A program made the translations under genes and the position numbers. The notes beneath the pieces are model-generated. The model worked only from the letters and a program-made list of their open reading frames with translations, made no database searches and was not told the DNA's origin. Below are positions 1 through 7,428 of a DNA stretch of 7,428 nucleotides, piece after piece. Source of the stretch: Verrucomicrobiales bacterium (lineage in GTDB: Bacteria > Verrucomicrobiota > Verrucomicrobiia > Verrucomicrobiales > DEV007); assembly GCA_022424805.1 (NCBI GenBank), contig JAKMGR010000106.1:1-7428 (forward strand), read 5' to 3'. Within the stretch, counting starts at the first letter, position 1; every line of letters starts with the position of its first letter.

Positions 1-369
1 GGTAAAGCGGGCGAGCTTCTTGTGTTTTTCAAACTTTCCTCGCATCGCTGCGATGACGAGCATGATGATCAGGGGGACATTGACCACTGCGAGAACGATA
101 TGAGGCAGCAGAATCGCGAGGTAAATCTTGCGGGCTGTCGAATACTCTTTCGGAAAGGTCGTGTGGCCCGCGCCATAGTGGTAGGTGAGGTAGCAACACA
201 GAAACACGGAAGAGCTGACGAGGGCTCCGAACATGGCCTTTTTGTGAGCCTCCTTTTTTCCTGATTTGATAAAAAGAAAGCCGACGACAAGCAGCACTGT
301 GCTGATCCCGTTGAGGGTCGCATTGATCGGCGGAAATACCGAATAGTCGATAGCAGCGATGATGTTCAT
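1..369 (-). CDS. DUF420 family membrane protein, C-terminus cut by window edge
   Basis: This frame is open from an ATG at 367-369 down to base 1 (123 codons, no stop), so the gene continues outside the window. The protein starts MNIIAAIDYS. It shows the DUF420 pattern: an N-terminal PPINATLN stretch, a first membrane helix at about 20-35, AHKKAM at 41-46, a second helix ending in a YHYGAGH segment (63-69), and a third helix around ILLPHIVLAVV (86-96). Histidines 42, 64, 69, 90 and 116 could bind metal or heme, but that is inference. DUF420 proteins usually sit beside SCO and cytochrome oxidase genes. From memory, the Firmicutes relatives (YozB/CtaM type) are needed for aa3 oxidase function; the biochemical role is unsettled. 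The start overlaps the SCO stop as ATGA (366-369), which suggests translational coupling. Confidence 0.88.
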   Translation of the reverse strand, partial: MNIIAAIDYSVFPPINATLNGISTVLLVVGFLFIKSGKKEAHKKAMFGALVSSSVFLCCYLTYHYGAGHTTFPKEYSTARKIYLAILLPHIVLAVVNVPLIIMLVIAAMRGKFEKHKKLARFT

Positions 370-1139
370 TGCTTAGCAGACTGAACAGGCCGAGGAGGCA
401 TGATGGGCGGAAGATCAGAAAGTTTAAGATCGGGGTTGAGAACCATTTTCAGATCTCTCAACAATCGCTTGTACTCGATGTCACCTCTCTGGAGATGCAA
501 AACATCGTAGTAACCGCGAATGTTGGCTTCCCCGTCGACAATCGCGAGACGTTGGTCATGAGCGAATTTCCCCTGTGAAGCAATGACTGCAGGGTCCGTA
601 TTTTCCTGTGTGCCTTGAAACATGAATTCGGAGATCATGTATTTGGTGATCTCTTCGGGATCCCCGGTGAGGAAATACCAATCAGGGGAGTCGATCCCTT
701 TGTCTTTCACCCAAGCATCCATTTTTTCCGGAGTATCCTCGGCGGGGTTCACACTGATGGAAACGAGTCGAAAGCGCGGATCGTTCCCAAACTGGTCCTC
801 CAAATCCTTCATCACCGAAGCGAGGCCGAGGCAGCCGGCAGGACAATCAGTATACTGGTAGCCAGCCACAAAGATGTGATCTTCCATCTCGCTGAGCGAA
901 ACCTTGCGACTGTCCCGATTGATGAGATCAATATCGGTCTCCAATCGGGCGACATGCGGCGGTCTCCAGTTTTCATTCTCGTAGGCAGTGCGGGCAAGAT
1001 AGGCCCGCGTGACGAATATCGAGCCGAAGGCAATGATCGCGCAGACCCCGAAGATAGATCCCCACCACGCGATCAGCTTCGAACGCGGAATTTCGGGTAG
1101 GCCGGGAGGCTCTTGATCTGTTGAAGGAGATTGTTCCAT
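366..1139 (-). CDS. SCO1/SenC family copper chaperone for cytochrome oxidase
   Basis: This is a 257-aa membrane-anchored thioredoxin-fold protein of the SCO1/SenC/PrrC family, which delivers copper to (or reduces) the CuA site of oxidase subunit II on the periplasmic side. A single N-terminal helix at about residues 24-46 acts as an uncleaved anchor. The copper-binding set is complete: C99 and C103 in the CxxxC motif (TDCPAGC) and H194 in FAHDQRLAIVD. The usual proline after the second cysteine is leucine here. The C-terminus has a proline-rich tail (LPPIMPPRP, about 243-251) beyond the fold. The gene follows ctaB after 33 bases and its stop overlaps the DUF420 start by 4 bases. No Shine-Dalgarno motif precedes the ATG. 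The family call is firm. The preferred partner is inferred from coxB in the same cluster. Confidence 0.95.
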   Translation of the reverse strand: MEQSPSTDQEPPGLPEIPRSKLIAWWGSIFGVCAIIAFGSIFVTRAYLARTAYENENWRPPHVARLETDIDLINRDSRKVSLSEMEDHIFVAGYQYTDCPAGCLGLASVMKDLEDQFGNDPRFRLVSISVNPAEDTPEKMDAWVKDKGIDSPDWYFLTGDPEEITKYMISEFMFQGTQENTDPAVIASQGKFAHDQRLAIVDGEANIRGYYDVLHLQRGDIEYKRLLRDLKMVLNPDLKLSDLPPIMPPRPVQSAKQ

Positions 1140-1172
1140 GTTTACCAGATAGAATACGCTCGCTCCGTCGAA

Positions 1173-2090
1173 TCAGTTCCACGCCAGATAGGACGCGAGC
1201 ATCATCAGGGGAAGGTAGAGAAGGCTGTAGAAAAAGAGTCGACGAGCATCAGCCCTTTCGCCACTGCGAAAGAACCGGATCGATAGCCAGAGCATGATCG
1301 CCCCGAGTAACCCACAGGGAATCGCCCCCCCACCCGGTATGGTCGAAGACACAAGAGGGTAAAGTGCCCCAAGCAACAGCGTTAACACCGAAAATCCGAT
1401 CGCAATTTTGGCGGTGAGTTTTCCTGTTTCATCACCGTTCGACCACATCACGAATCCGCCGCGCTTGTATTCATCGCGATACATCCAGTTGATCGCAGCA
1501 AAATGTGGCATCTGCCAGAGGAAGAGGAGCAGGAAAAGAAACACAGCCCCCGATATCCACGGGTCCGGTTTTCCGGCGGCCCAGCCAATCAGTGGCGGTA
1601 GTGCTCCCGATACGCCGCCCACAATCGTGTTAAAAGTGGAGATTCGTTTCAACGGCGTGTAAATGAATAGGTAAGTCAACAATGTCGCTGCCGCCATCGC
1701 TGCCGCAATGATGTCGACTTTCACCCCCAGGTGAATCAGGCCAAAGGCGCTGAGAAGCCACCCGATAATGAAGGCAATTGGTTTGGGAATGCGATTTGCG
1801 GGCAACGGGCGATCTGATGTTCGTCGCATTTTTGCGTCCGCATCGACTTCCATGAGTTGGTTGAACACAGCCGAGCCAAACGCTGCCAGGGTCGTCCCAA
1901 AAACGAGATGAAACAGGATGCCCCAGGAGAATGTCCCGCTTCCCTTTGTCGCCACGAAATATCCAAATACAGAGGTGAGGACAACGAGGATGCTGAGACG
2001 CGCCTTTGTCAGGACTACAAAGTCCTCCCTCAAGCTTCGAAAGAAGCTCTCCGGTTGATCATTGGATTCAGAAGTCTCAGTTACTGCCAT
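1173..2090 (-). CDS. ctaB: Protoheme IX farnesyltransferase (heme O synthase)
   Basis: This enzyme of the UbiA superfamily transfers a farnesyl group from farnesyl diphosphate to heme B, giving heme O, the precursor of heme A. With the ATG at 2088-2090 (MAVTETSESN) the protein has 305 residues, the usual family length. The prenyl-diphosphate motif is at 77-91 (NQLMEVDADAKMRRT), followed by SDRPLP. Its first acidic position is Glu, as in COX10-like members. The second conserved region is MPHFAAINWMYRDEYKRGG, with H196, Y204, D206 and Y208. About eight to nine membrane helices are evident. The frame stays open upstream to 2237, but those residues overlap ctaA and do not look like this family. 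An ATG at 2156 is the main alternative because a GGAGAGG lies 11 bases before it. The chosen start leaves a 43-base gap after ctaA. Confidence 0.95.
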   Translation of the reverse strand: MAVTETSESNDQPESFFRSLREDFVVLTKARLSILVVLTSVFGYFVATKGSGTFSWGILFHLVFGTTLAAFGSAVFNQLMEVDADAKMRRTSDRPLPANRIPKPIAFIIGWLLSAFGLIHLGVKVDIIAAAMAAATLLTYLFIYTPLKRISTFNTIVGGVSGALPPLIGWAAGKPDPWISGAVFLFLLLFLWQMPHFAAINWMYRDEYKRGGFVMWSNGDETGKLTAKIAIGFSVLTLLLGALYPLVSSTIPGGGAIPCGLLGAIMLWLSIRFFRSGERADARRLFFYSLLYLPLMMLASYLAWN

Positions 2091-2133
2091 TGCTGCGATG
2101 CATGCGTGTCCGAACTTGAATTGTATATCAGGC

Positions 2134-3258
2134 TCAGGATTTCGCCAGCGGAGCATCAAGTGCTTTTCCTCTCCAGGCTCGAACCGCGAACACGAAAGAA
2201 AGCGCCAGAATCGCAAGGCCATTGAGAACGTGAACATTGGTTACCCAGAAACTTTTTTCAGTCCCAATTACGGTGAGTCCCAGGACCAACTGAAGCAGGA
2301 TCAAACCAATTATGAGCGCAACCGTCTGAAAAGCACGACCGTCCGACTCTCTCCTCCCACCGACCAGGCGAATCAGAATTCCAACAGCGAAAAGGAGTAT
2401 GCAAACGGCGGTGAATTTGTGCAGGAACAAGACTGCGATAATGGGATCTTCAAATGAGGGAACCCATTGTCCCTGTGTTTTCACCAAGTCGGCGTCAACC
2501 AATCCACTTCGATGAAAATGGCGCATCGTCGCCCCGAATATCAGTTGGAGGAGGACAAGGAGCCATAGTGCGACGCCCGAAATCTTCGTCAGCCGGAGGC
2601 GATCCCTCAAATCGGCAAAACCAACATCCTTCCATTTCTTCCCGGTCATCATCGCAATCAGAATGAGCACGCAGAAAAAAACCTGAGCAAAGCAGCCATG
2701 AAAGACCGCGAATCCATCAGAAATCTCTGTTACGCGCAGGCCGCCAAGAACAGCCTGAGTCGTTACCATCAGCAAGGCGAGTGCCGACAATTTTTGGAGA
2801 GTGGTCCAGCCACGCTTTCTCCAACTCCAGACCAGCCAGATCACAGGAACGGCACCGAGCCCTAAGGCGACCAAGAGAAGAGATTGCTTGCGCGCGGGAT
2901 CGACTCGCTCGGCTCCTGCAGCGATGAAAAACCCCATCATGACGATGAGCCACACAATCAAACCCACGACTTCGAGAGCCTTTTTCCCGGAACGAACGTA
3001 GGTCCAGAAAAAGAGAATGAGGACGAGAACTCCAACTGCTTTCGCGAGCAGCCGATGCGTGTGCTCGAGAAAGGGGATCATGTTCTCAAGCCATCCGGGC
3101 GGATTGATTGTCCCCATGCTGAGCGGCCAATCGGCAAAGATCATTCCTGCCTGCTTTGTCGTTGTCGCCGCGCCCCACCAAATGAGTAGGAGAGCTACCA
3201 CTACGATAAATCGCGTGAAGTAGGAAAAGGAACGACCGGGTGTTTCGTTGGAGATCAT
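2134..3258 (-). CDS. ctaA: Heme A synthase, COX15/CtaA family
   Basis: This 374-aa integral membrane protein oxidises the C8 methyl group of heme O to a formyl group, making heme A for subunit I. About eight helices are visible. The four family histidines are present: H68 in EHTHRLLAK (with E65, matching the conserved acidic residue), H187 in FAVFHGCF, H280 in FLHKFTAV and H343 in NVHVLNG. These would ligand two hemes in the two symmetric four-helix halves. The segment GMIFADWPLSMGTINPPGW (38-56) after helix 1 is typical of COX15-like proteins. The extracellular cysteine pair seen in Bacillus CtaA is not apparent. The gene lies 112 bases after coxB, behind a terminator, and may open a second transcription unit continuing into ctaB. 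Only a weak purine run (AAGAGA) precedes the ATG. Confidence 0.95.
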   Translation of the reverse strand: MISNETPGRSFSYFTRFIVVVALLLIWWGAATTTKQAGMIFADWPLSMGTINPPGWLENMIPFLEHTHRLLAKAVGVLVLILFFWTYVRSGKKALEVVGLIVWLIVMMGFFIAAGAERVDPARKQSLLLVALGLGAVPVIWLVWSWRKRGWTTLQKLSALALLMVTTQAVLGGLRVTEISDGFAVFHGCFAQVFFCVLILIAMMTGKKWKDVGFADLRDRLRLTKISGVALWLLVLLQLIFGATMRHFHRSGLVDADLVKTQGQWVPSFEDPIIAVLFLHKFTAVCILLFAVGILIRLVGGRRESDGRAFQTVALIIGLILLQLVLGLTVIGTEKSFWVTNVHVLNGLAILALSFVFAVRAWRGKALDAPLAKS

Positions 3259-3280
3259 GGTCTATCTCTTACTACGCCCT

Positions 3281-3309
3281 TCCATAGCGAAAGGATAGGT
3301 TTCAGCCAA
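3281..3309 (-). promoter_or_regulatory. Possible weak promoter for ctaA (speculative)
   Basis: After the terminator, the minus strand has TTGGCT (bases 3304-3309) and TATGGA (3281-3286), separated by 17 bases. They match 4 of 6 and 3 of 6 sigma-70 consensus positions. A start just downstream would give a leader of about 15 bases before the ctaA ATG. The match is poor and could be chance. It is listed because the terminator implies that the assembly genes need their own promoter or depend on read-through. Confidence 0.18.
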
Positions 3310-3340
3310 AAAAATGGCGGAACGTTTTCACGATCCGCCA
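3308..3340 (-). terminator. Rho-independent terminator after coxB
   Basis: Read on the minus strand, TGGCGGA (3334-3340) pairs perfectly with TCCGCCA (3315-3321). After one T-T mismatch, two further C-G pairs close a TGAAAA loop. A run of seven T follows at once (3308-3314). The hairpin begins about 30 bases after the coxB stop, in the gap before ctaA. A GC-rich stem plus a T tract is the classic intrinsic terminator layout. It probably ends or attenuates the structural-subunit transcript. Confidence 0.85.
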
Positions 3341-3370
3341 CTCAAATCTGTTCACGAGAGTAAGATGGAG

Positions 3371-4135
3371 CTACTTCTTGGGAAGCAGTGGATTTTGCGA
3401 GTTGTTCCACTCGTCAAACTCCTCGGAGCTGACTGCACTCACGTAAGCGACCATCTGGGCGTGACCTGCTCCGCAAAGCTGCGCGCAAACTATATTCCAG
3501 TCTCCTTCTTTCTCAGGAATGAACCACATGGGAATTTCTGATCCGGGAATCGCATCCTGCTGCGAGAACATCGGAACGATGGCCAAGCCGTGGATGACGT
3601 CCTTGGAAGTGACCTGGATGACGACAGGACGGCCAACGGGGACAATCAGTTCGTTAACCGAAACAAAGTCATCAATTGCGTTCGGGTCTTCTGCAACGAG
3701 ACCAACCGGGTTGGGTCCAGAGATTCGCTCATGGTCCGTAATTCCAACCATATTGTCCTTACCTGCATAGTGGAAAGTCCAGCGATATTGCTCACCAACG
3801 GCACGAAGATTCACGACATCGTCGCCGGTGGGGCGGACATCTTTGTCCGAGCGCTTCGCCCAAAGGGGAAACGCAAATCCGAGAAGCAGTACGACCTCAA
3901 CGATCACCACGCCAACTTCGACATGCGTCGAGAAGTGCGACGTCATCCCGGCGTAACTCGCCTTTGGGTTCTTCTTCTGGCGAAACTTGTAGAGAATCAC
4001 GAAGAGGAAAGCAGTCCATCCTACAAAGAGGACAGCCATAAACCAGTGAATGAGAGCCAGCATGTGGTTTCCCACGTGGCCGTGACGGGATGCAATTTCA
4101 TGCATTCCAGAAACTTCATTAATCCACTCAATCAT
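3371..4135 (-). CDS. coxB: Cytochrome c oxidase subunit II (CuA subunit)
   Basis: Subunit II accepts electrons from cytochrome c through its binuclear CuA centre and passes them to heme a in subunit I. The 254-aa protein has two membrane helices (about 28-50 and 72-94) and then a periplasmic cupredoxin domain. The aromatic electron-entry patch is YRWTFHY (117-123). All CuA ligands are present: H182 (DVIHGLAIVPM), C217, C221, H225 and M228 (CAQLCGAGHAQM). The residue between the cysteines is Gln219 rather than the common Glu; this ligand acts through its backbone carbonyl, so the site should be intact. No signal peptide, lipobox or fused cytochrome c domain is seen, so the electron donor must be a separate protein. 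The gene lies 34 bases after the CPLC protein. It is the last gene before the terminator, an unusual position, since coxB often precedes ctaD. Confidence 0.97.
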   Translation of the reverse strand: MIEWINEVSGMHEIASRHGHVGNHMLALIHWFMAVLFVGWTAFLFVILYKFRQKKNPKASYAGMTSHFSTHVEVGVVIVEVVLLLGFAFPLWAKRSDKDVRPTGDDVVNLRAVGEQYRWTFHYAGKDNMVGITDHERISGPNPVGLVAEDPNAIDDFVSVNELIVPVGRPVVIQVTSKDVIHGLAIVPMFSQQDAIPGSEIPMWFIPEKEGDWNIVCAQLCGAGHAQMVAYVSAVSSEEFDEWNNSQNPLLPKK

Positions 4136-4169
4136 AGTAAAAATTCGTTCAAATTAGGGGCTTTGCAAA

Positions 4170-4364
4170 CTATTGAGCAGAACCCTCGGGAGGTGCGGCC
4201 TCAAAGCGGCGCGCACGTTTTGCAAGATAGACGATGAAACTGAGAAAACTCATCAGTACGAGGCAAAGAACGACGAGAAGAAACAGGATCGCTGAATTGG
4301 CAGCCATCGCCGTTTTTCCTTCAGCTCCACTCATACACAACGGACATGCGAGAATCGGATTCAT
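4170..4364 (-). CDS. Small single-helix membrane protein with N-terminal CPLC motif
   Basis: This 64-aa protein is not assigned to a named family. It begins MNPILACPLCMSGAEG, so C7 and C10 form a CPxC pair close to the N-terminus. One strong membrane helix follows (about 22-47) and then a basic segment, KRARR (49-53). By the positive-inside rule the C-terminus should be cytoplasmic and the CPLC motif periplasmic, the side where CuA is assembled. A role in copper handling, thiol chemistry or as an accessory subunit is inference only. The gene sits between two oxidase-associated genes on the same strand and immediately before coxB, which argues that it is real. No Shine-Dalgarno motif precedes the ATG. 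The six residues before C7 are too short to be a signal peptide, so a lipoprotein is unlikely. Confidence 0.75.
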   Translation of the reverse strand: MNPILACPLCMSGAEGKTAMAANSAILFLLVVLCLVLMSFLSFIVYLAKRARRFEAAPPEGSAQ

Positions 4365-4385
4365 AAAATCAATCGGGTGTCTTCG

Positions 4386-4583
4386 TTAAATAATTACGTC
4401 CTTGGACTTCTTCAGGAAACGAAACCAGTAAACCAGCAAAGTAATTCCACCAATCACGCTCAACCATCCCATGAGGCTAAACATGGAAGGAAGTCCATTT
4501 GCAAGCAAACACCATGCTCCAAACCCGAGAGAAAACAGGGTGCAGAAGCCGATAAACCCAATGTGGAAAAATTTCAGGGACAT
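4386..4583 (-). CDS. Small two-helix membrane protein of the oxidase cluster
   Basis: This 65-aa hydrophobic protein has two predicted membrane helices, about 6-28 and 34-54. They are joined by a short ANGLPS turn and followed by a basic tail (RFLKKSK, 55-61). Both termini are probably cytoplasmic. The start MSLKFFHIGFIGF resembles small proteins I associate with oxidase clusters in Planctomycetota and Verrucomicrobiota, but I cannot name a family with confidence. It has a single histidine (H7) and two cysteines (C14, C25), the latter within the first helix. The gene is 21 bases after subunit IV and 21 bases before the CPLC protein, as in a tightly packed operon. It may be a minor structural subunit or an assembly factor. 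Both are inference from location. Confidence 0.72.
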   Translation of the reverse strand: MSLKFFHIGFIGFCTLFSLGFGAWCLLANGLPSMFSLMGWLSVIGGITLLVYWFRFLKKSKDVII

Positions 4584-4604
4584 GGTGAATGGGGGTATTT
4601 AGAG

Positions 4605-4967
4605 TTATTCTGTTAGCTTGCCATTCGTCGTTTCACGAGTGTCATACGACTCAACGATCGGGTCCGCTGCAGCGAACAAAGTCAGGGCCATGAGACTAAC
4701 GAAAAACAAAAAGGTAAACAGGAGAGTCTTGTAGATGAGACCTTTTTCGTGGTTCAGGTGCATGAAAATCAGGGCAACCAAAGACGCTTTCGTACCAGCA
4801 ACAGCGAGACCGATTACGTAGTCAGCCGGAGTCGGTCCCGGAGGGCCCAAATCCAGCGGCTCCCAAATTCCCAGAATGAGGGTAACGAAGGTAAAGACAA
4901 ACAGGGCGATTCCAACGGCCCAGTAGGTCTTTTTGTGACTATCCCAATCGTGTACTTCTTCTGACAT
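4605..4967 (-). CDS. Cytochrome c oxidase subunit IV, COX4_pro/CtaF type
   Basis: This 120-aa small subunit matches the prokaryotic cytochrome c oxidase subunit IV family. It has three membrane helices at about 14-36, 48-70 and 77-100, an acidic N-terminus (MSEEVHDWDSH), and the family signature in helix 2, GTKASLVALIFMHLNHEKG (58-76) with K60, H70 and H73. The segment between helices 1 and 2 (EPLDLGPPGPTPADY) is proline-rich and should be periplasmic. In related oxidases this subunit is non-catalytic and thought to stabilise the complex. The gene follows the subunit III gene after 42 bases, matching the common ctaD-ctaE-ctaF order. No Shine-Dalgarno motif is visible before the ATG. Confidence 0.92.
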   Translation of the reverse strand: MSEEVHDWDSHKKTYWAVGIALFVFTFVTLILGIWEPLDLGPPGPTPADYVIGLAVAGTKASLVALIFMHLNHEKGLIYKTLLFTFLFFVSLMALTLFAAADPIVESYDTRETTNGKLTE

Positions 4968-5009
4968 TCTACTAAGAGTAATTGTGATTTTTAAAATGCG
5001 GCTGCGTTC

Positions 5010-6449
5010 TTAAAGAAGATACATCAGCGGGAAAAGGAAGATCCAGATCAGGTCGACGAAGTGCCAGAAAAGCCCTCCCACCTCAACTCGATTGGCGAGA
5101 TGCTCTGGATTTTTGAGATACAGTTTCTTACCGAAGACAGTGAAAAAGAGCAGAACCAGCGCACCACCCACAACGTGGAGACCGTGCAAGGCCGTCATTG
5201 TGAAATAGAGCGCGTAGTAGTTGCCGTATCGAGGGCCGTGATTGCCCATGAATTTGATCTTATCGCGTGGGACGGTGATGTAGTCGTGATGCTCGCCATC
5301 ACCTTCACTAGCAGAGTGCTTTGCTTCGCTCTTGTGAGGCTCGTCCCCATGATCACCATCATGCCCATGATCTCCGTGATCGATATAGTGAAGGTTCAAC
5401 ATGTGACCGCGGAGCATTTTGTCTGGGATCGTCTCGCCGCGCCCTTCGTAGTACTCGCGCATCTTTTTGTATTCCTCCTGCTGCTTCGCAAAAAACTGCT
5501 TCTTCGCATGATCGTCCCCGATGACCTCCCAAACTATAGAATCCCGCTGCTTCTGAGGAAGGACCAGTTGGAGATCGACCTCATGCATAACGAACTTGAC
5601 GTCGTCACTGATGAGTTTGCCCTCAACCTTTGAGCCGTCACGATAATTTACGGATGTATCCGAGTGACCAACCACTTTGGTGGGCTTGGCATTCACATTA
5701 AATGGCTCACTGGAAACCAGCGTTGCTGAAGTATTCAGATTTACCGGTTTCGCGTTTCCTGACTCCAGTTCCTTGCGATAACGAGTCCTCTCTGCTGTCA
5801 GCTTTTTTGCTGCGATGCGACGATGCTGCGTAAACCACTTCTTGAGCTGGGACTCGGAAGAGATTTCGGTAACGATTGGCTCCTCGTCTTCCTTGAACTG
5901 AACTGTTGCCGTGAAGGTCGGGAATTTCTCATCACTGATATCTTTGAGGAATGCCGGATGGGCTCCCTGAAGGCCAAAAACAGCTTTAGTCCCCTCAAAT
6001 CGAATTCGATCTGTTTTGTCGAGAATGGCACCTTCCATTACCGAGTTGTCGACCAACTTGATCCCGTGGTGTTTGTTCAGCTTGCTGTTGTACTCAACCC
6101 CTTTGACGCACATGAACACGAGCGCACAGGCGACCACGAAATACATGTAGAGTTGATACTTCCTCCAGTTCCGCTCCTTCAGAGCGACCCAGGCAAAGAC
6201 GACACCAACCGAAGAGGCAATGAGAACAAGGGTGTTCAGGAATCCAAGCCAGACAAAACCTTTGTGGACGTTAAGTCCCCATGGCCAAGGATTATCAACA
6301 CCCTCCTGCACTCCGGCCCGAAGAAAAACGTAAGCGGAGAAAAGGCCGCCGAAAAGCATGACCTCAGAGGCAAGAAATAACCAAACTCCTAGCTTGGCAT
6401 TGTAGAGGCCCGTGTCCCGGCGGGGCTTCACTTCGTAGGGAATCTCCAT
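5010..6449 (-). CDS. ctaE: Cytochrome c oxidase subunit III with a large internal insertion
   Basis: Subunit III supports the stability and proton uptake of the oxidase. The N-terminal part (1-120) holds three helices (about 20-43, 64-90, 99-118) with the hallmark FLASEVMLFGGLFSAY, including E29. The C-terminal part (401-479) holds two helices, with MTALHGLHVVGG (418-429) and FWHFVDLIWIFLFP (461-474). Together they make about 199 residues, the usual size of the five-helix bacterial subunit III. Between them lie about 280 residues not expected in this family. Basic residues between helices 2 and 3 (KERNWRK) mark the cytoplasmic side, so the insertion should be periplasmic. The frame is intact across the join, so this is not a broken gene. 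The start is supported by MEIPYEVKPRRDTGLYNAKLG, the usual run-up to helix 1. The gene is 55 bases after ctaD. Confidence 0.95.
   Translation of the reverse strand: MEIPYEVKPRRDTGLYNAKLGVWLFLASEVMLFGGLFSAYVFLRAGVQEGVDNPWPWGLNVHKGFVWLGFLNTLVLIASSVGVVFAWVALKERNWRKYQLYMYFVVACALVFMCVKGVEYNSKLNKHHGIKLVDNSVMEGAILDKTDRIRFEGTKAVFGLQGAHPAFLKDISDEKFPTFTATVQFKEDEEPIVTEISSESQLKKWFTQHRRIAAKKLTAERTRYRKELESGNAKPVNLNTSATLVSSEPFNVNAKPTKVVGHSDTSVNYRDGSKVEGKLISDDVKFVMHEVDLQLVLPQKQRDSIVWEVIGDDHAKKQFFAKQQEEYKKMREYYEGRGETIPDKMLRGHMLNLHYIDHGDHGHDGDHGDEPHKSEAKHSASEGDGEHHDYITVPRDKIKFMGNHGPRYGNYYALYFTMTALHGLHVVGGALVLLFFTVFGKKLYLKNPEHLANRVEVGGLFWHFVDLIWIFLFPLMYLL
5250..6089 (-). other. Extra periplasmic domain inside subunit III
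   Basis: This region encodes residues 121-400 of subunit III. It is hydrophilic and without membrane helices. It looks mixed: strand-like stretches around FPTFTATVQFKEDE (176-189) and VKFVMHEVDLQLVLP (284-298), charged helical parts (202-229 and 314-337, rich in K, E, Q and R), then a His/Asp/Gly tract. The core loop of a normal subunit III here is only a few tens of residues, so most of this is additional. I recognise no known domain. The stretch YRDGSKVEGKLISDD could be part of a small beta-barrel, but that is speculation. No stop or frameshift interrupts it. Confidence 0.8.
5286..5390 (-). other. Histidine/aspartate-rich tract in subunit III insertion
   Basis: Residues 354-388 of subunit III contain nine histidines (354, 358, 361, 363, 367, 372, 378, 387, 388) in 35 residues, mixed with Asp, Glu and Gly, for example DHGDHGHDGDHGDEPH (357-372). 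The composition suits weak binding of copper, zinc or another divalent metal. It lies just before the fourth membrane helix and is predicted to be periplasmic. Metal binding is inference from composition. Confidence 0.7.
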
Positions 6450-6504
6450 AATAGCTGCAGAAATAAATTTTCGAATACGAGAGAGTTAGGAATGACTCTT
6501 GTTT

Positions 6505-7428
6505 TCAGGCAGGATTCTCCTGCTCTTTTCCACCAGTAGAAACCATCGAAGGCTCCTTTTCGCATTGTGGCGTAAAATCCTGTTCCGCTCCGGGCACGCT
6601 ATACTCGTACGGACCCCGGTAAGCCACAGGCTCTTCTAGGAAATTCCCATGAGGCGGTGGCGTAGGAGTCGCCCACTCCAAAGTGGTAGCATCCCAGGGA
6701 TTGTCTCCTTTGGCTTTCTTACCGAATCGACCACTAATGAACAGGTTGATAATGAACGGGACCTGGAAAATCGCGAGTAGCCAGGCTGATGCCGAAGTCA
6801 CAACGTTGAGATCAATCATGAGGACCGGCTCATTTTTTCCAACGATGCCGAGGAACTCACAAATGTTGGCGATGAAGCCGTTCGCTTCGGCGAAAATCTG
6901 ATTGCTGATTTGCTCGTAGGCTCTTCCTCCGTCGAATGCGCGGCGGTGAAAACCTGCCATTCCCTGAAACATCATTGGCGCAAAAATTCCATTCATGAGG
7001 ATGAGGGATGGCCAGAAATGGAGTTGGCCAAGACGCTCACTCATCATGCGTCCCGTGATCTTGGGATACCAGTGATAGATACCGGCAAAGAGCGCAAAAA
7101 TCGTTCCCGGAGCGACCACATAGTGGAAGTGGCCGATTACGTAATAGGTATCGTGAAGATGCAGATCAGGAAGGCTGAATGCCAGCGGCAAGCCCGTCAA
7201 TCCGCCGATTCCGAACATCGGGATGAAAGCAGTCGCAAACAACATTGGAGTGTTGAAGCGAATCGAGCCCCCCCACATCGAGATCAGGAGCGACGTAATT
7301 AGAATCACCGAGGGCACCGAAATCAGCACCGTTGTCGTCTGGAAAAAGGTCGAGATCGCAGGCCCCATCCCCGTGATATACATATGGTGGGCCCAAACGA
7401 TGAAAGCGAGAAAGCCAAGAACCATAAC
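6505..7428 (-). CDS. ctaD: Cytochrome c oxidase subunit I, C-terminal part (N-terminus beyond window)
   Basis: This is the catalytic heme-copper subunit that reduces O2 to water and pumps protons. The frame is open to the right edge, and its upstream part, including the third CuB ligand and the cross-linked Tyr, is missing. Counting from the Met codon at 7423-7425, the visible key residues are the CuB pair H13-H14 (VWAHHMYITGM) and the heme ligands H99 (a3) and H101 (a) in HDTYYVIGHFHYV. Other hallmarks are MWGGSIRFNTPM, FGIGGLTGLP, IYHWYPKITGR and the C-terminal signature NPWDATTLEWATPTPPPHGNF. These identify an A-family oxidase. Where the K-channel motif VPTGIK normally sits, the sequence is VPSVIL, so the lysine is replaced by Leu (codon 7300-7302). 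A polar 30-residue tail ends the protein. It is the first gene visible in the cluster. Confidence 0.97.
   Translation of the reverse strand, partial: VMVLGFLAFIVWAHHMYITGMGPAISTFFQTTTVLISVPSVILITSLLISMWGGSIRFNTPMLFATAFIPMFGIGGLTGLPLAFSLPDLHLHDTYYVIGHFHYVVAPGTIFALFAGIYHWYPKITGRMMSERLGQLHFWPSLILMNGIFAPMMFQGMAGFHRRAFDGGRAYEQISNQIFAEANGFIANICEFLGIVGKNEPVLMIDLNVVTSASAWLLAIFQVPFIINLFISGRFGKKAKGDNPWDATTLEWATPTPPPHGNFLEEPVAYRGPYEYSVPGAEQDFTPQCEKEPSMVSTGGKEQENPA

Follow-up and report, generated by a model that had tools for sequence, protein, structure and literature searches.

The window analyzed in this study is a stretch of 7,428 nucleotides from a Verrucomicrobiales bacterium (assembly GCA_022424805.1, contig JAKMGR010000106.1, positions 1 to 7,428). 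Its minus strand encodes an aa3-type cytochrome c oxidase, and the subunit III of this oxidase, CtaE, has about 280 residues inserted between its helices 3 and 4. An insert at this place, large or compact, was present in all 29 loci linked to alternative complex III (ACIII) that we compared and in none of the six loci where genes for a Rieske protein, cytochrome b or an eight-haem cytochrome adjoin the oxidase genes (assigned by Pfam for G146 and G285). We therefore propose that it is a docking module that holds the oxidase to ACIII with its cytochromes c, a reading to which we give a little less than an even chance. Subunit III is part of the conserved core of respiratory oxidases. If the proposal is true, what holds ACIII and the oxidase together becomes directly testable through one loop, and a component of respiration in Verrucomicrobia comes to light that the usual annotation, "cytochrome c oxidase subunit 3", conceals.

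The comparison comprised 79 loci, chosen mostly one per genus, and a locus was counted as ACIII-linked when at least two ACIII genes lay in the fetched stretch. Among the 29 ACIII-linked loci, the insert was measured by the final script in 26, separately in L160 and L176, and for L175 it was taken from an unbroken match to query residues 1-262. The remaining loci had neither donor set and carried an insert in 42 of 44 cases; for three of these 44 (L109, L192 and L194), the neighbours are not visible, as the contig either ends there or is very small. Eight sampled oxidases of the same type have no insert and a helix 3-4 loop of 7 residues (G146, G278, G285, G335, G337, G349, G357 and G359). The genes for the Rieske protein, cytochrome b and the eight-haem cytochrome adjoin the oxidase in six of these eight, with only part of the set in the fetched stretch of G285 and G337, while the cytochrome b gene shares the contig at a distance of about 18 kb in G278 and lies on another contig in G349. 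Of the 37 genomes searched for this cytochrome b, 10 gave a match with E 1e-114 or better, including all eight without the insert, and the best match in the other 27 had E 3.9e-36. From this gene order, we infer a physical contact, with ACIII or its cytochromes as the partner. A contact for a partner complex was one of several roles listed in an earlier note on this DNA, and it is now the best backed of them.

Several observations weigh against this proposal. The rule that ties the insert to the donor complex has exceptions: G342 and G352 have the cytochrome b, a compact form of the insert and no match to ActC, and G349 and G359, which are among the genomes without the insert, carry both ActC and the cytochrome b. 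Presence and absence of the insert require two changes on the CtaD tree, and a single insert-less clade was not rejected by the approximately unbiased test (p-AU 0.24). The contrast between the two sets of loci is a natural experiment of one or two events and not a statistic, and a paired test on the tree comprised 2 independent pairs and had no power. As the CtaD tree is rooted by two distant oxidases, the branches of which are long (1.63 and 8.97), we make no claim on gain or loss. A second CtaD tree was built without L109 and the two outgroups; for it, three of the loop values were manual entries, and genomes outside the 37 searched for cytochrome b were scored as being without it. We also considered genome-wide presence of ACIII as strong evidence and rejected it, as 244 of the 286 genomes from the class have ActC. 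Among genomes with this type of CtaE, 125 of 130 have an ActC match (hand count), the exceptions being G335, G337, G342, G352 and G357.

The loci also showed further features. The CtaE proteins of G146, G278 and G285 (L132:13433-14221, L117:943-1689 and L134:7822-8553), which lack the helix 3-4 insert, have a helix 1-2 loop with a segment rich in histidine and acidic residues. That of G337 (L145:8775-9590), likewise without the insert, contains additional, mostly hydrophobic sequence between its helices 4 and 5. The eight-haem cytochrome (L134:11100-14078, L132:6531-9533) has about 1000 amino acids and combines FixO-like with cytochrome c domains; its gene accompanies the cytochrome b genes next to insert-less oxidases. 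Additionally, a secreted-looking protein of about 230-250 amino acids is encoded immediately upstream of ctaD at L134:10350-11066, L141:7324-8067 and L144:6358-7056; the one in L134 gave a weak CarboxypepD_reg match (E 5e-4), and the other two are alike by eye.

The ctaE gene is a single uninterrupted frame of 479 codons (5010-6449, minus strand, as are all features of the window given below). Its product scored 71.7 bits against the Pfam family COX3 (curated cut-off 23.8) in two matching stretches, one at each end, of which the better covers residues 19-121 (E 1.2e-19). In a profile search of the genome, COX3 positions 77-179 mapped to 6087-6395, and positions 189-255 mapped to 5016-5222. The AlphaFold2 model has five long helices, namely residues 13-44 (6318-6413; low confidence, with a predicted local distance difference test score, pLDDT, of 47-65), 66-91 (6177-6254) and 95-126 (6072-6167), which the COX3 match also supports, followed by residues 410-446 (5112-5222) and 448-478 (5016-5108), which are supported by the COX3 profile. 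This arrangement agrees with solved subunits III of five or seven helices. Genes for subunits I and II are encoded alongside (COX1 and COX2 matches), and both ends of CtaE read as ordinary COX3. The difference from the five-helix subunit III of Pfam PF00510 (CyoC, CtaE) is that the window's protein has roughly 280 extra residues after helix 3 and before helix 4: its two COX3 stretches are 288 residues apart, against 9 positions in the Pfam profile. An insertion of about this size in an intact frame had been described in the earlier note at residues 121-400 (5250-6089), and the COX3 ends, the modelled helices and the aligned homologues all bear it out; the bounds were right to a few residues and are refined here to residues 123-404 (5238-6083).

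Modelled alone, the insert is confidently predicted to form a compact folded domain (pLDDT 90.3; predicted template modelling score 0.82). Subunit III has its N-terminus inside. The loops between helices 2 and 3 (+3) and helices 4 and 5 (+2) are net positive, the helix 1-2 loop (-1) and the insert (-4) are net negative, and the N-terminus is neutral (0). Given this topology, the insert is predicted to face the periplasm, in agreement with the earlier note, which had also recognized no known domain. Indeed, Pfam and NCBIfam gave only weak, unrelated matches to the insert (MAP domain, E 0.072; another, E 0.22), Foldseek with the insert model returned nothing better than E 0.11, and a sequence search of the PDB found subunit III chains on the flanks only, besides a chance-level cation channel match (E 0.57) overlapping the insert. 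Among proteins below the length of a full CtaE with a large insert, a search with a profile of the insert core revealed no free-standing copy: of its 6 matches, four (P0122, P0123, P0125 and P0127) have a COX3 domain or name, and two (P0124 and P0126), which have no domain listed, may be fragments. An internal repeat of residues 122-175 and 255-312, which had first been chosen by eye, reached P 0.0034, yet its probability in a profile comparison was 3.9%, and it is not claimed.

With a Methylacidiphilum-type CtaE as the query, we found homologues with a much shorter helix 3-4 loop. Loops were measurable in all but 10 of 260 CtaE sequences, and the 236 inserts measured comprised 119 large ones with a median of 293 residues (217-409) and 117 compact ones with a median of 89 residues (41-268). 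Many relatives have a compact insert of 60-110 residues, and the named sources include Methylacidiphilum, Methylacidimicrobium, Methylacidithermus and Chthoniobacterales. The compact inserts have the pattern KFxHYxVxLxDGxxxxGHL, followed by a strand of hydrophobic residues, a loop that varies and is often rich in His, a further strand and IKxxxN, which reads, from the sequence, as strands 1-2-3, a long loop and strands 4-5. Since the window's insert begins KLNKHHGIKLVDNSVMEGAIL and finishes YITVPRDKIKFMGN, thereby resembling the compact inserts, it looks like that barrel enlarged between strands 3 and 4 by residues 160-352 and a linker. The proposed small barrel would then consist of residues 127-159 (strands 1-3; 5973-6071) and residues 390-403 (strands 4-5; 5241-5282), which are modelled as strands and follow the compact pattern. 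Residues 160-352 (5394-5972), absent from the compact inserts, are modelled as an additional folded domain of strands and two long helices, and residues 353-389 (5283-5393) form a His-rich linker that appears disordered (pLDDT <50 at about 362-386). A lysine followed by a hydrophobic residue, two variable positions and a histidine stands at the start of 118 of the 119 large inserts and of 104 of the 117 compact ones, and an early GH occurs in 105 of 117 compact versus 8 of 119 large ones. From their position and this short pattern, we infer that the two forms are homologous. The earlier picture of a conserved, predicted-periplasmic domain of subunit III holds, but it missed the compact form of 60-110 residues and the eight relatives without an insert.

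The barrel is probably Sm-like. The strand pattern of the compact inserts resembles Sm/LSm small barrels, and the first 25 rows of VIA-align for the window's insert, all weak structural matches, comprised 23 entries for spliceosome, small nuclear ribonucleoprotein or LSm structures and 2 for TIP60. When 24 compact inserts were searched against Pfam, one matched Hfq_1 and one ROF, both weakly (E 0.13) and both Sm-like families, beside equally weak matches to DUF3659 and PepSY_TM_like_2; a profile search of the PDB with compact inserts gave 0 matches. On the tree of 76 CtaD proteins, the large insert requires one change. Taken further, a Sm-like barrel set in the subunit III loop might be the ACIII coupling module across the class, enlarged once in the window's order and missing where a Rieske/cytochrome b complex is the partner. 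We regard this wider version as rather unlikely; if true, the choice of respiratory partner is written into one loop of subunit III.

In the proposed docking, the barrel would stand on the periplasmic side of subunit III, and the added domain found in the window's order would widen the contact with the ACIII side. A related arrangement is described in the accessible text of PMC8361435 for Flavobacterium johnsoniae, where ACIII and an aa3 oxidase form a supercomplex with interactions mediated by a five-helix subunit III; subunit III is said there to vary in structure, possibly to suit different partners. That text mentions no insert in the F. johnsoniae subunit III, and an association of the window's complexes is putative. 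The same source describes the mycobacterial III2-IV2 supercomplex, in which the subunit III side (CtaE/CtaF) is likewise the main contact to complex III; in contrast, the partner is cytochrome bcc, and the named extension belongs to QcrB and not to subunit III. In verrucomicrobial methanotrophs, ACIII genes adjoin genes for a cbb3-type oxidase according to PMC8498564 and PMC6688271, in the main texts of which the term "subunit III" does not occur; the accessible text of PMC9145763 does not mention Verrucomicrobia. The open-access literature, with subscription papers outside the scope of the search, yielded no description of such an insert.

The gene order of the relatives also allows for another partner. 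In L095 and L096, from the window's genus, the operon starts with ActA-B-C-D-E-F and continues with genes for a small protein, a CcoN-like protein and two monohaem cytochromes c, followed by ctaD, ctaE, ctaF, ctaC and ctaA. The ACIII genes were named from haem counts, from NrfD and 4Fe-4S matches and from gene order. In the window's own genome (G000), ActB and ActC lie on a separate contig (C270), and the window's contig ends in ctaD. The two cytochromes, encoded between ActF and ctaD, are found in most ACIII-linked loci, and the insert might dock them and guide them to CuA without touching ACIII. In favour of this idea, CtaC has no haem motif at the five loci checked, so that a separate carrier would be needed. 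However, CtaC is also without haem in insert-less oxidases (L132 and L140), and the genes of the cytochromes and of ACIII occur together, so that gene order cannot tell docking of the cytochromes from docking of ACIII. We consider cytochrome docking alone unlikely.

Compared with docking to ACIII, a role of the His-rich linker as a copper or zinc buffer that aids metal delivery to CuA appears improbable. The linker contains 2-18 histidines (median 9) and no cysteine among 121 aligned proteins, and histidine makes up >=10% of 110 of 119 large inserts and of 55 of the 97 compact ones long enough to measure, yet it stays below 10% in 9 of 119 and 42 of 97, respectively. The linker also varies in length (35-98) and sequence, and His-rich stretches occur elsewhere, namely in another loop of the insert-less G146, G278 and G285 and at the N-terminus of CtaD. 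Sco or PCuAC copper chaperones have CxxxC or H(M)x10Mx21HxM-like motifs. Neither CxxxC nor a PCuAC-like motif was found in any of the 236 inserts (0/119 large, 0/117 compact), nor was CxxCH. A metal buffer would furthermore leave the conserved fold unexplained. Metal storage or delivery, as suggested in the earlier note, is thus possible for the linker but less supported for the insert as a whole, since it is mainly the disordered linker that is His-rich.

Conservation bears on whether the insert has a partner-specific role at all. The homologue set consisted of the best 120 of 5212 matches to CtaE (7998 candidates scored), with lengths of 434-605 amino acids and identities of 44-97% over the aligned part; query coverage was 99-100% in 116 of them and 51-88% in the remaining four. 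A CtaE match was found in 73 of 95 related genomes. Among 32 other genomes of the window's genus, 21 gave an unbroken alignment of the whole protein, 3 gave two overlapping pieces and 8 gave no match. Because homologues align across the whole protein, the insert is, on these alignments, neither a frame error nor a product of chance; it has been kept through the lineage, as the suggestion of a lineage-wide trait implied. Eleven positions between residues 123 and 307, including W205, D271, G277, D282 and W307, are invariant in 59 aligned homologues. The numbers of nonsynonymous substitutions per site in the folded part were 0.11, 0.27 and 0.33 in three pairs; synonymous substitutions were saturated in two of these, and the single ratio obtained was 0.13. 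A lineage-specific elaboration that stabilizes subunit III or its assembly, without a partner-specific role, would fit the wide range of lengths (41 to 409 residues in the 236 measured proteins) and the faster change of the folded insert part, which is 83% identical in the nearest pair versus 97% for the membrane part. It is at odds with the eleven invariant residues and with the absence of the insert in the six loci where the other donor complex adjoins, and we consider it improbable. That the insert is an assembly artefact or an ordinary cytoplasmic loop is scarcely credible: the genome is fragmented (708 contigs, 75.7% complete), but many independent records contain this protein, its reading frame is unbroken and the loop charges fit a periplasmic insert.

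The order of genes on the minus strand of the window is ctaD, ctaE, ctaF, frames of 65 and 64 codons, ctaC, ctaA, ctaB and genes for a Sco protein and DUF420. The gene for subunit I, ctaD (6505-7425; COX1, E 2.8e-55), is cut by the contig end; ctaF (4605-4967) encodes a subunit IV type protein (Pfam COX4_pro), and ctaC (3371-4135; COX2, E 1e-13) encodes subunit II with the CuA-type motif CAQLCGAGHAQM and no CxxCH. The two short frames between ctaF and ctaC (4386-4583, 65 codons; 4170-4364, 64 codons) have no Pfam match, and the one of 65 amino acids recurs next to ctaF in many relatives.

The CcoN-like protein (cbb3-type subunit I) is encoded between the ACIII genes and ctaD at L095:10549-12006, at L098:4859-6301 and in 29 further loci. 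The motifs NGxHHLIGGP and HxHLG are kept in three of these 31 loci (L175, L176 and L189), and the proteins of the remaining 28 are without both. If these motifs supply the usual ligands of CuB and haem, the "cbb3-type oxidase" beside ACIII in verrucomicrobial methanotrophs may often be a scaffold rather than an oxidase.
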